Shown in pieces: positions 6,403-54,157 of a stretch of 64,000 bases of DNA. The stretch covers positions 7,083,299 to 7,147,298 of the forward strand of contig NZ_JAGKQQ010000001.1 in assembly GCF_017939745.1 (NCBI RefSeq), written 5' to 3'. Source of the stretch: Gemmata palustris (GTDB taxonomy: Bacteria > Planctomycetota > Planctomycetia > Gemmatales > Gemmataceae). Numbering within the stretch: position 1 is the first letter of the stretch; each line of letters begins with the position of its first letter. The notes below the pieces were generated by a model, which ran no database searches, was not told the DNA's origin, and was given only the letters and a program-made list of their open reading frames with translations. The translations under genes and the position numbers were made by a program.

Positions 6403-6507
6403 GGCGAACGGCCGGTGTAAGCCGGCCGGTGAGAGCGGCAAAGAGCTTTTACAGGATCAACAAGAGACGGGCTCATTCAACCGGCCGGCTTACACCGGCC
6501 GTTCGCC
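6403..6507. repeat. REP-like family B inverted pair
   Basis: Two 28-nt units form a perfect inverted repeat (6403-6430 and 6480-6507) around a 49-nt spacer. Each unit starts GGCGAACGG and contains an inner hairpin CGGCCGG-TGTAAG-CCGGCCG. The spacer includes ACAGGATCAACA (6451-6462), which recurs inverted inside the pair at 12951-13116. The layout, a palindromic unit in head-to-head pairs between genes, is that of REP/BIME elements mobilised by RAYT transposases. A RAYT gene flanked by the same unit lies at 46906-47478. Confidence 0.9.
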
Positions 6508-12950: not shown

Positions 12951-13116
12951 GCATCGGGCGAACGGCCGGTGTGAGCCGGCCGGTGGTGCCACACGCGAAC
13001 GGCTGATGGAGTGCCGTGAATAGGCCCGGCTGCTCGGGATCGTGTTGATCCTGTGAATCCTGTCAAAGCTCGTGGTGGTTTCACCGGCCGGCTCACACCG
13101 GCCGTTCGCCCGATGC
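12951..13116. repeat. REP-like family B inverted pair with 35-bp perfect arms
   Basis: The 28-nt units at 12957-12984 and 13083-13110 carry TGTGAG in place of TGTAAG in the hairpin loop. The identity extends outward by six bases (GCATCG) and inward by one, giving perfect 35-bp arms (12951-12985 and 13082-13116). The 96-nt spacer contains TGTTGATCCTGT (13043-13054), the complement of the ACAGGATCAACA core in the pair at 6403-6507. The element fills most of the gap between the dehydrogenase remnant and the LolA-like gene. Confidence 0.9.
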
Positions 13117-46676: not shown

Positions 46677-46762
46677 GGCGAACGGCCGGTGTGAGCCGGC
46701 CGGTGAGAGATTGGCCGATGATCGGCGGGAGGTCGGTGAACGGCCGGCGTAAGCCGGCTGGT
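46677..46762. repeat. Two direct family B REP-like units upstream of the RAYT gene
   Basis: Units at 46677-46704 (loop TGTGAG) and 46735-46762 (variant GGTGAACGG start, CGTAAG loop) lie in the same orientation. The matching inverted unit is at 47496-47523, on the other side of the transposase gene. Confidence 0.9.
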
Positions 46763-46905
46763 GAACTGTCTACCGGTCAGTTAATGAACGAGCGAGCGAT
46801 GAACGACTGGGGGAGTGATCGCGGCAATAAGTAATTGAGTACAGGCGGCATTGTGGCGGCACGCCCACCAACTAGCTGGTGCCGGCTCACCTGGGCGAGG
46901 TCTTT

Positions 46906-47478
46906 ATGACCTTTGATGGTCACTCGCGTCACTGGCTGCTGACGTGGCGAACCTATGGTACATGGCTTCCCGGCGACCCGCGGGGCTTCGTTGGTGCCGT
47001 CGTTACGACGAGAGGTACGCGCGAAATCCACAACACACCAGGAGCGCCACAGGAGGCGCCTTCGGCGGGATTGCGAGAATACGCCCGATCGGTCATGCGG
47101 GGCTCCGTGGTGCTGCTCGAACCGGCACACGCGATAGATGTGTTCTCGCAGTTACGGGAAACCTCAGCGCGTCGCGGCTGGGCGCTGCTCGCCCTCGCGG
47201 TCCTTACGAACCACATCCACGCCGTGGTTCGTGTCGAAGGTGATCCCGATGGCGCGGTTCTACTTCGTGATTTCAAGAGCTACGCGAGTCGTCGGCTCAA
47301 TACCGCGCACGGCAAACCCGTAGCGGGTTCCTGGTGGTCGGAATCTGGTTCGCGCCGGGTGCTTCGTGATGAGAAGAACATTCTCGCCGCGATCGAGTAT
47401 GTCAGTAGTCAGACCGGAGCGCTGTTCGTCTGGGCAGTCGCGCCGGTTGGGGAATCGATTGGCATTGATGTTGGTTGA
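46906..47478 (+). CDS. REP-associated tyrosine transposase (RAYT, Y1/IS200-like HUH family)
   Basis: A 190-residue protein starting MTFDGHSRHWLLTWRTYGTW; a GTG at 46879 would add nine residues. RHWLLTWRTYGTWLPGDPRG is the usual opening of planctomycete/proteobacterial RAYT proteins. The HUH motif is NHIH in LTNHIHAVVRVEGDP (about residues 106-120). The catalytic Tyr is probably in DFKSYASRRLNTAH, downstream of HUH as in Y1 transposases. The family nicks single-stranded REP hairpins with a covalent Tyr link. Motifs look intact, so the enzyme may be active or domesticated. The gene sits between moxR and lgt. Confidence 0.9.
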   Translation: MTFDGHSRHWLLTWRTYGTWLPGDPRGFVGAVVTTRGTREIHNTPGAPQEAPSAGLREYARSVMRGSVVLLEPAHAIDVFSQLRETSARRGWALLALAVLTNHIHAVVRVEGDPDGAVLLRDFKSYASRRLNTAHGKPVAGSWWSESGSRRVLRDEKNILAAIEYVSSQTGALFVWAVAPVGESIGIDVG

Positions 47479-47495
47479 TCGTCCTTGTCGCTCTC

Positions 47496-47523
47496 ACCGG
47501 CCGGCTTACACCGGCCGTTCGCC
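47496..47523. repeat. Inverted family B REP-like unit downstream of the RAYT gene
   Basis: A 28-nt unit in reverse orientation to the two upstream copies, with the consensus loop. It ends 12 bp before the lgt ATG, so its hairpin could form in the lgt leader RNA next to the ribosome site (AGGTAG). Confidence 0.9.
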
Positions 47524-47535
47524 AGGTAGTACCTC

Positions 47536-48747
47536 ATGCAACAAGTTCTATTCACGATCCCGATCTTCAAGGACTCGTTCAAGCCCGACGGCATCCCGAT
47601 GTACGGGTTCGGGGCGATGCTGTTCGTGTGCTTCGTCGCGGTGACGGTGTGGGGGTCGCGGCGCGCCAAGCGGACCGCGAACATGCCGCCCGAGCGGTTC
47701 CAGGACATGGTCATCTGGCTGTTCGTGTCCGGTCTGATCGGCGCCCGCACCCTGTACATGATCCAGTATTCCCGCCAGTTCCCAGACCAGAGCATCGGCG
47801 GGCTGATCGCCGCGTTCTTCAAGATCTGGGAAGGCGGGATCATCTTCTACGGTTCGGCGCTCGGCGGGGTGATCGGCTACGGGCTCTTCTACCAGCTCAT
47901 CCTGCGCCGGCTCGATGTGTCGGGCTGGCGCCTCGCGGACGCGGTGGCCCCGCTGCTCGCGCTCGGGCTCGCGATCGGCCGCATCGGGTGCTACCTCAAC
48001 GGCTGCTGCTGGGGGCAGGTCGCGTGCGAGGAGTGCCGGCCGGTGCCGCTTGGCGCGGCTCACTTCCCACTGCTCCCCGCACACGCACGGCAACAAGTGG
48101 TGGGCGATGTTGCGAGTAAAGAGGCGTCGCTGTACCTCCAGACCGCCACCGGTTTCGTCCGTGTACCCGATGAAGAGGGGAAATTGAAAGTTGTGGCCGT
48201 CGAGACGGACTCCCCCGCGGCGCGCGCGGGCGTGAAGGTCGGGGACCGGATCGCCGAGGTCAACGGTGAACCGAACGAGGTGGCCCGTCCCGGCTACGAC
48301 CGACTCGACGAAATCACCCAATCGTGGCCTCGGGGTAAATCGAAGTTAGAGCTTGCTGTGAGCCGCAACGGGGAGGTCGTGAAACTGCCCGCGTTCGCGC
48401 CCGCGACCGTTGGGCTGTACCCGACGCAGCTCTACGAAACCGTAAGCATGGTGCTGCTCATCCTGCTATTGGTCGCGTACTACCCGTACCGCCGGCACGA
48501 CGGGCAGGTGATGGTGCTGCTCATGGTCGGCTACGCGGTTCACCGGTTCATCAACGAATCGCTCCGGATCGAGCCGGCCGTTGGCGGGGGCCTGACGCTC
48601 TCTCAGTGGGGCAGTGTGGTCATCTTCACGGCGGCGGTCGGGATCGAAATCTACTTGCGGCGCACGATGCCGACGCCGCCCGAGCCACTGATACCCGTCG
48701 CGACGTTGGTCCCCTCGCTCCCGCCGGGTGCGGCCCCCGCGCAGTGA
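47536..48747 (+). CDS. lgt: Prolipoprotein diacylglyceryl transferase with inserted PDZ domain
   Basis: A 403-residue inner-membrane enzyme that transfers diacylglycerol from phosphatidylglycerol to the lipobox Cys of prolipoproteins. Family segments are GIIFYGSALGGVIGYGLFYQ (about 101-120), the signature GRIGCYLNGCCWG (148-160), LYPTQLYE (294-301) and HRFINESLR (336-344). Between the signature and YPTQLYE about 130 residues are inserted. Residues about 205-288 form a PDZ-like domain (VVAVETDSPAARAGVKVGDR, LELAVSRNGEVVKLP). Normal Lgt is about 260-300 residues. The Pro-rich C-terminal tail is also longer. The insert probably lies on the periplasmic side and may bind substrates. Confidence 0.93.
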   Translation: MQQVLFTIPIFKDSFKPDGIPMYGFGAMLFVCFVAVTVWGSRRAKRTANMPPERFQDMVIWLFVSGLIGARTLYMIQYSRQFPDQSIGGLIAAFFKIWEGGIIFYGSALGGVIGYGLFYQLILRRLDVSGWRLADAVAPLLALGLAIGRIGCYLNGCCWGQVACEECRPVPLGAAHFPLLPAHARQQVVGDVASKEASLYLQTATGFVRVPDEEGKLKVVAVETDSPAARAGVKVGDRIAEVNGEPNEVARPGYDRLDEITQSWPRGKSKLELAVSRNGEVVKLPAFAPATVGLYPTQLYETVSMVLLILLLVAYYPYRRHDGQVMVLLMVGYAVHRFINESLRIEPAVGGGLTLSQWGSVVIFTAAVGIEIYLRRTMPTPPEPLIPVATLVPSLPPGAAPAQ

Positions 48748-50800: not shown

Positions 50801-50958
50801 GGCGAACGGCCGGTGTAAGCCGGCCGGTGAGAACCAGATGGCCGTTGTGTCGCCTCCACCGGCGCGGAACTGGCGGTGCGTCGTCGCGCACACGTCTGGG
50901 GTAAGAATCAGATGGCCGGTGTGTCGTCTCCACCGGCCGGCTTACACCGGCCGTTCGC
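50801..50958. repeat. REP-like family B inverted pair with duplicated spacer
   Basis: Units at 50801-50828 and 50932-50958 are inverted. The spacer holds a direct duplication of about 35 nt: CCAGATGGCCGTTGTGTCGC (about 50834) and TCAGATGGCCGGTGTGTCGT (about 50908). The right unit ends two bases before the stop codon of the convergent M41-like gene. Confidence 0.88.
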
Positions 50959-50959
50959 A

Positions 50960-54018: not shown

Positions 54019-54157
54019 GGCGAACGGCCGGTGTAAGCCGGCCGGTACGAACGAACGCTGGCCCACGCGATCACTGCGGATCTGACTTCCGACTTTATGT
54101 GTGAGCCGGATGGCGTGAGGGCGAGCTACACCGGCCGGTTTACACCGGCCGTTCGCC
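54019..54157. repeat. REP-like family B inverted pair abutting hrpB
   Basis: Units at 54019-54046 and 54130-54157 are inverted, 27 of 28 identical. The right unit overlaps the last base of the hrpB stop codon (54157-54159). The 83-nt spacer lacks the ACAGGATCAACA core of other pairs. Confidence 0.88.

Follow-up and report, generated by a model that had tools for sequence, protein, structure and literature searches.

The window analysed here, a stretch of 64,000 nucleotides from the genome of Gemmata palustris, very probably carries a REPtron: one chromosomal HUH/Y1 transposase gene whose cognate hairpin brackets the gene and has spread as paired, non-autonomous REPINs. The system is a variant of this known kind, with a familiar layout and with a protein and a hairpin foot that differ from those of the described classes. 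It bears on the way in which hairpins are recognised and spread by RAYT-like enzymes and on the reasons for which hosts retain them.

The transposase gene and its protein

The gene lies at 46906-47478 on the forward strand and encodes 190 amino acids from its ATG; an upstream in-frame GTG at 46879 is also possible as a start. The first-pass annotation had described the product as an HUH/Y1 protein with an NHIH motif and a downstream tyrosine, and this was borne out by alignment. H103 and H105 of the NHIH motif (residues 102-105, codons at 47209-47220, forward strand) and the predicted catalytic Tyr165 (codon at 47398-47400, forward strand; motif YVSSQ, thus Y---Q) are invariant in 30 rows, as are T13, Y17, L21, G23, G27, R90, K124, G148 and S149. 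Nearly invariant positions of this alignment span residues 10 to 169. When it was widened to 82 rows, partial ones included, H103 and H105 were kept in 78 and Y165 in 74.

Profile models place the protein between families. It scores 21 bits with Pfam Y1_Tnp (cut-off 23) and 41.7 bits with the NCBI model REP_Tyr_transpos (cut-off 80), and at E values up to 0.001 all 30 members of the smaller alignment match REP_Tyr_transpos and 28 of them the IS200 model. An AlphaFold2 model of the protein has the HUH fold (pLDDT 84, pTM 0.77). A Foldseek search with this predicted fold put ISDra2 TnpA at the top (E 5e-6); 4ER8, the E. coli RAYT-REP complex, came in twelfth place (E 8e-5), with ISDra2 and IS608 TnpA both ranking above the E. 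coli RAYT. Searching structures with the sequence profile gave the IS200-type 2f4f (E 3e-6), and 4ER8 was missing from the matches at E up to 1; a PHROGs search found nothing. The enzyme family seems to bridge the IS200 transposases and the RAYTs. The protein is present in a single copy in its own genome, where the next match is 35% identical.

The hairpin unit

Two direct units lie upstream of the gene (46677-46706 and 46735-46764, both forward) and one inverted unit downstream (47494-47523, reverse), all matching the unit pattern and all as first annotated. The outer flanking units form a 34-nt inverted repeat that is 97% complementary. The eight further copies that the annotation had counted in the window were also recovered, in inverted pairs at 6403-6507 (6403-6432 forward, 6478-6507 reverse), 12957-13110 (12957-12986 forward, 13081-13110 reverse), 50801-50959 (50801-50830 forward, 50930-50959 reverse) and 54019-54157 (54019-54048 forward, 54128-54157 reverse). 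The window thus holds 11 matches at up to 3 mismatches, compared with none in 100 shuffles. The repeat is real, and it is better described as a 30-nt unit than as one of 28 nt, composed of a foot GGYGAA, an 8-bp stem, a GTNA loop and a tail GTGA. As single-stranded DNA it is predicted to form the 8-bp stem and a GTNA tetraloop (-10.7 kcal/mol, z -3.5), and the pair at 6403-6507 to fold as one long hairpin (z -9.9).

The unit is far from confined to the window. Over the three contigs of the genome, 9.23 Mb in all, 225 copies match at up to 3 mismatches, 108 of them on the forward strand and 117 on the reverse, and 88 of the 225 are perfect to the degenerate pattern; the reversed pattern, searched over the whole genome, gave none. 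Across the 117 copies collected from 41 genome stretches, foot (GGCGAA) and stem hardly vary, with at least 113 copies agreeing at each of the six foot positions, and polymorphism falls on positions 14, 17, 25 and the last two. No T-run was seen 3' of the unit: any one position from +1 to +10 has a T in 7 to 35 of the 117 copies. The units are therefore not plain intrinsic terminators, and that candidate was rejected.

Another repeat, TTTTTGACAGGATYAACACGATCAAG, is enclosed by units at window positions 6433-6477 and 12987-13080 and in the unit spacers of L166 and L194. Allowing 4 mismatches, it was counted 8 times in the 1.2 Mb that were sampled. Since several unit pairs enclose it, repeats nest within the same gaps.

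Placement and pairing of the units

Placement was assessed in 41 stretches, namely 40 of 20 kb picked around listed unit copies plus the window, with gene calls from a home-made codon-usage caller rather than a published one. Only 13 of 112 units fall inside predicted genes, against 89.9 expected. The 99 intergenic units lie in convergent (36) and co-directional (63) gaps and never in divergent ones, although the latter make up 38 of the 154 kb of gap length; the median distance to the nearest gene 3' end is 62 nt. Close neighbours number 55: in 50 the two units are inverted and have their feet outward, in 5 they are direct, and in none do the feet point inward. This paired share is not an unbiased genome figure because the stretches were picked around listed copies. 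The genome-wide count and the check for intergenic inverted pairs, both proposed by the first-pass annotation, thus came out in its favour.

Inverted pairs have start-to-start distances of 39-160 nt (mode 57-63). Both arms carry the same loop base in 45 of the 50 pairs (permutation mean 20.8, maximum 32) and the same 14/25 type in 43 (permutation mean 25.6, maximum 35), and other non-consensus bases occur in one arm only 28 times and in both arms once. With the loop base and 14/25 type shared and other variants private, the two arms of a pair seem to stem from one donor at birth and to drift apart later. Homogenisation of the arms by conversion within pairs was rejected on the same count of shared and private bases (1 vs 28). 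Copying of pairs together with their spacer did not hold up either, above-shuffle spacer similarity being limited to two small groups (4 and 3 of the 50 pairs); REPIN spacers are already described as highly diverse in Park 2021 (PMC8049555). A possible target preference shows outside the foot, where positions -4 to -2 favour T or A, then Y, then Y (p from 7e-4 to 1.5e-6 per position), and it is present on both outer sides of pairs.

Other arrangements occur elsewhere. A variant unit in another genome (G011:C1, e.g. 648962-649029) forms pairs at 41-nt spacing whose feet point inward, the reverse of what the window's genome shows. At G038:C78:13178-13482 (L051, L089) the units beside the RAYT form a same-strand tandem array with a 46-nt period, not inverted pairs.

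Sister enzymes and their hairpins

The window protein has a match at E up to 1e-3 in 65 of 95 family genomes, its own included. A search with the alignment profile matched, at E up to 1e-8, at least 78 of 392 genomes drawn from the phylum, a lower bound since up to nine candidates were scored per genome. For the hairpins we scanned 82 loci: 80 from a named collection that has at least this number, together with the window gene and its paralogue. Nearly all of the 80 come from planctomycete records; the label is Chloroflexi for three and simply bacterium for two.

Two scans were run, each blind to the feature used by the other. Searching by the foot, 66 of the 82 loci have at least two copies of a YGARC-footed repeat within 450 nt, compared with none in each of five Markov shuffles and 3 of 45 far controls. 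Many of these 66 units carry a loop GTNA or GCNA, to which the search was blind; five of the consensuses do not look like hairpins (L081, L110, L123, L130 and L139). The other 16 loci, some of which have short flanks, show no repeated YGARC unit within that distance. Searching by the loop, a repeated GNNA-loop hairpin was found within 450 nt at 42 of the 82 loci and at none in one shuffle, and by a count from the listing 35 of the 42 have the YGARC foot. Foot and GNNA loop are constant at most sister loci, and the stem arms vary.

The stem arms vary with the enzyme. The first-pass annotation had suggested comparing a protein tree with unit sequence, and stem-loop similarity does follow protein identity (r 0.31, 0 of 2000 permutations) in a Mantel test over 55 loci, which left out six consensuses with more than four undetermined bases and the five that do not look like hairpins. 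Homologues 70% (L033), 62% (L034) and 53% (L035) identical to the window protein adjoin the same unit as the window gene, L034 on one side only. In a tree of 71 of the 82 rows (the partial or odd L079, L100, L102, L122, L128, L131-L133, L136, L137 and L139 were left out), whose bootstrap values are not fully settled, the window protein, L062, L063 and L064, all with a GGCCGG arm, belong to a supported clade of 12 rows (98/93). The foot reads GAAC in all 11 rows of this clade that have a determined unit (L086 is the twelfth) and GAGC in 45 other rows. Residue 15 is Arg in the window protein (codon at 46948-46950, forward strand) and goes with foot base A in its own clade, and it is mostly Thr with G elsewhere. 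Foot base and residue 15 each change once on the tree, in a count that again left out the five odd consensuses, among them L110, which reads GAAC outside the clade and is not a hairpin. As the two change together only once, they give no independent support for a coupling.

Units in genomes with and without the enzyme

The unit is common in congeners where no close relative of the enzyme was found: 119 copies in G010 and 144 in G020, both without a homologue found, and 112 in G009, whose best homologue is 43% identical. RAYT and unit are therefore not tied genome by genome. G010, a single contig of 10.1 Mb, gave no match to the window protein at E up to 1e-3 and none to PF01797; because PF01797 missed the window gene itself, a divergent enzyme could be missed in G010 and only the protein search counts. 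The first-pass annotation had held that a unit equally common in genomes lacking this RAYT clade would speak against it. This half applies, as the unit is abundant in these three genomes, with a smaller intact share there: perfect units number 21 in G010, 19 in G009 and 3 in G020, compared with 88 of 225 in the window's genome.

When genomes are pooled, those with a RAYT of at least 70% identity (the window's genome and G013) have 139 perfect units out of 352, and eight congeners without one have 98 out of 587 (Fisher p 2e-14). Units of one genome are not independent of each other, the eight congeners range from 0 to 36%, and the consensus comes from the window's genome. Left out of this comparison were the remaining nine congeners, which have between 0 and 3 matches each and 8 units in total, and all genomes from outside the genus, including G089, where a 62% identical RAYT accompanies 386 unit matches, 3 of them perfect to the consensus of the window's genome. 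In G019, an assembly of 1430 contigs whose best homologue is about 36% identical, 35 of 105 units are nonetheless perfect.

Four other unit families were counted in the 95 genomes at up to 2 mismatches. The CCGGCGGC-arm unit peaks in G038, the genome with its RAYT (211, the next having 52). The GGCGCGGC-arm unit (U5) peaks in G016 (157), whose RAYT carries U5 arms; G022 comes second with 128 copies, though its RAYT was not seen with U5, and G015 has 19 copies, though its RAYT is flanked by U5. In the case of the CCCCGCCC-arm unit, G009 (143) and G044 (133) both have their RAYTs and the highest count is that of G019 (184). The CCGCCTGC-arm unit has 71 copies, 17 perfect, in G012, which has the RAYT, and 91 copies, 1 perfect, in G019. 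Genomes hold several unit families. Across genomes, enzyme and unit are indeed linked, though loosely, which is to be expected of units that outlast the gene.

History of the sites among relatives

By Pfam, the neighbours of the transposase gene are an AAA_3/MoxR-type ATPase and Lgt; the Lgt homologue, at 47536-48747, has a PDZ-like stretch (residues about 208-246) inside its LGT domain. The RAYT is absent between these neighbours in all 12 congeners, of 14 asked, where both were found. In G013 (65% complete) the site lacks the RAYT and one 70% identical homologue lies on another contig, beside other genes; no second near copy of the window gene was found in this assembly.

One stretch can be aligned with G010 and G009 in blocks 76-97% identical. 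At the site of the pair at 50801, G010 has one full unit and a shortened remainder, and G009 has no unit. The site at 54019 lacks a unit in G009; in G010 just its left flank could be matched, and the stretch that follows has no unit. Conversely, a pair in G010 lies at a site that has none in the window's genome and one of another family in G009. From 40 unit clusters over 464 kb of the window's genome and 500 kb each of G010 and G009, 13 cross-comparisons were possible (sites can count repeatedly); in 6 the site in the other genome was occupied, and in 7 it lacked a unit. One pair common to the window's genome and G009 keeps its spacer, and one of its arms is shortened in the former.

Clean empty sites for pairs were looked for and rejected, because other sequence often fills the same gap in G009 or G010, so that no insertion footprint can be read. 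In the G009 and G010 gaps orthologous to 54019, and in the G009 gap orthologous to 50801, lies another long repeat (CCACGGATGA.CACAGAG...). These 3' gaps thus look like shared landing places for several kinds of repeat.

Comparison with known systems

In our best reading the system works like a REPtron and stands nearest to the class 3 TnpA-Y1 of Quentin 2018 (PMC6006769), a class described there on the basis of 24 proteins (11 from planctomycetes) and having structures with a CnGA foot. Compared by these described features, over 82 loci here against the 24 published proteins, the likenesses are an NHVH-type HUH motif (NHIH in the window protein; NHVH in 29 and NHIH in 12 of the 82 homologue rows), an N-terminally extended conserved core (profile about 155 aa), a largely planctomycete distribution, and flanking non-GTAG hairpins that can reach high copy number, as with the 225 matches here and the roughly 600 copies that the same source gives for Solibacter usitatus. 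The differences are Y----Q in the class and Y---Q (YVSSQ) in the window protein, W[TA] against WS, and a CnGA foot against GGYGAR (GGCGAA). Among relatives these features are mixed: the 74 rows with the tyrosine aligned have Y---Q in 62, Y----Q in 10 and another motif in 2, the 76 rows with the tryptophan have WT in 60, WA in 9, WS in 4 and others in 3, and a CCGA foot was found in some (e.g. L090, L134). Y----Q was rejected as the marker of one clade, as it involves 3 changes on the tree.

With the class 2 RAYT/TnpA-REP of E. coli and Pseudomonas the window shares the REPtron layout of a single gene flanked by its own repeat, and intergenic inverted pairs with diverse spacers; background on REPINs and on TnpA-REP recognition is found in Bertels and Rainey 2011 (PMC3116915), Park 2021 and PMC8266576. 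The protein differs from this class in lacking Y---NP (it reads YVSSQT) and in staying below the NCBI RAYT model cut-off, and the unit in lacking the GT[AG]G foot, so a canonical RAYT was rejected. The first-pass reading of a RAYT-REP system in a planctomycete thus survives in so far as an HUH/Tyr protein goes with a cognate repeat that is genome-wide, intergenic and in inverted pairs, and fails as a textbook RAYT on these points and on the fold ranking. Since defining features were tested and not found, we file the system neither as class 3 nor as class 2 RAYT.

IS200/IS605 TnpA (ISDra2, IS608) have the same fold, HUH motif and Y---Q, and in the literature recognise single-stranded hairpins with a guide 5' of the stem, a likeness that may extend to the present unit; they differ from the window's system, where no multicopy element was found, hundreds of units lie apart from the gene and the N-terminal region is longer. 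The GTAG/CGTC REPs with their TIRYTs (Di Nocera 2013, PMC3733652) are likewise palindromic repeats tagged at one end and mostly downstream of genes, with tags that the window unit lacks. That article reports GTAG repeats in Planctomycetes and its text does not name Gemmata. Among the papers searched by RAYT and REP terms, we found no other title or opening of an abstract on such a planctomycete system.

Discussion

Other explanations have to be weighed against a REPtron. The units could be functional 3'-end elements under selection, acting as protein-binding sites or, in the form of RNA hairpins, in termination or mRNA stability, with the transposase merely among them. Their absence from divergent gaps and their closeness to gene 3' ends are in keeping with this, as is the persistence of units in G010, where no Y1 transposase was found. 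However, differently armed hairpins lie beside most sister genes and some sites differ between close relatives, and we regard such a role as unlikely to explain the units, while their later recruitment to it would be compatible with the data. It is quite unlikely that the gene is an ordinary IS200/IS605-type insertion sequence with the units as its ends. Hundreds of units lie away from the gene, it is single in its genome and near-identical copies of a whole element were not found, for which this candidate was rejected; G013, with its one homologue at another locus, agrees. The resemblance is nonetheless considerable, given Y---Q as in class 1, a fold and sequence profile nearest to IS200/IS605 TnpA and a gene site empty in every relative checked.

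A further option, which we consider very unlikely, is that the units belong to another transposase and that the window gene is a passenger that landed among them. The genome does have three further Y1_Tnp matches that exceed the cut-off, genomes in which no close relative of the gene was found are rich in the unit, and there are several unit families per genome. Yet the window unit (up to 6 mismatches) was not found within about 2 kb of the Y1 genes L306 and L307 or in 7.5 kb round the paralogue L002, which has a unit of its own, whereas the three homologues L033, L034 and L035 adjoin the same unit as the window gene, L033 at another locus.

Returning to the REPtron, the enzyme would, judging from its family, bind the folded single strand of the unit, reading the foot as a guide and the stem and loop as an address. 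Tyr165 would cut beside the foot, as in IS200/IS605 and the E. coli RAYT, and pairs of units may be moved in trans via single-stranded intermediates, probably at replication forks. After loss of the gene, units would persist and decay. A possible but rather doubtful extension is that planctomycetes hold a large natural set of enzyme-hairpin combinations in which a constant foot and GNNA loop with swapped stem arms make up an orthogonal address code for single-strand DNA transposases; that the foot base (GAAC or GAGC) is read via residue 15 (Arg or Thr), where the first strand of the enzyme ends; and that a new pair takes both arms from one donor, with a new spacer. The dozens of related enzyme-hairpin pairs, with constant foot and loop and changing arms, are material for swap experiments. 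G010, in one contig, with its hairpins kept and no Y1 transposase found in it, is material for measuring decay without the enzyme.

Some of the other Y1 enzymes of the genome have repeats of their own. L002 (G000:C1:4313675-4314151, G000 being the window's genome) encodes the 35% identical relative, with Y----Q, and is flanked by a bulged-stem unit, ACGAGCCGCGACCGCAAGGGAGCGG, found 51 times in the 1.2 Mb of genome that were sampled, where the reversed pattern gave none. L306 (G000:C1:4265594-4269932) and L307 (G000:C1:3634373-3638702) are IS200-like and end in Y---Q--HH, as in the published subclass 1.2. Repeated inverted blocks lie on the flanks of L306, and their core occurs 9 times elsewhere in the 1.2 Mb sampled.
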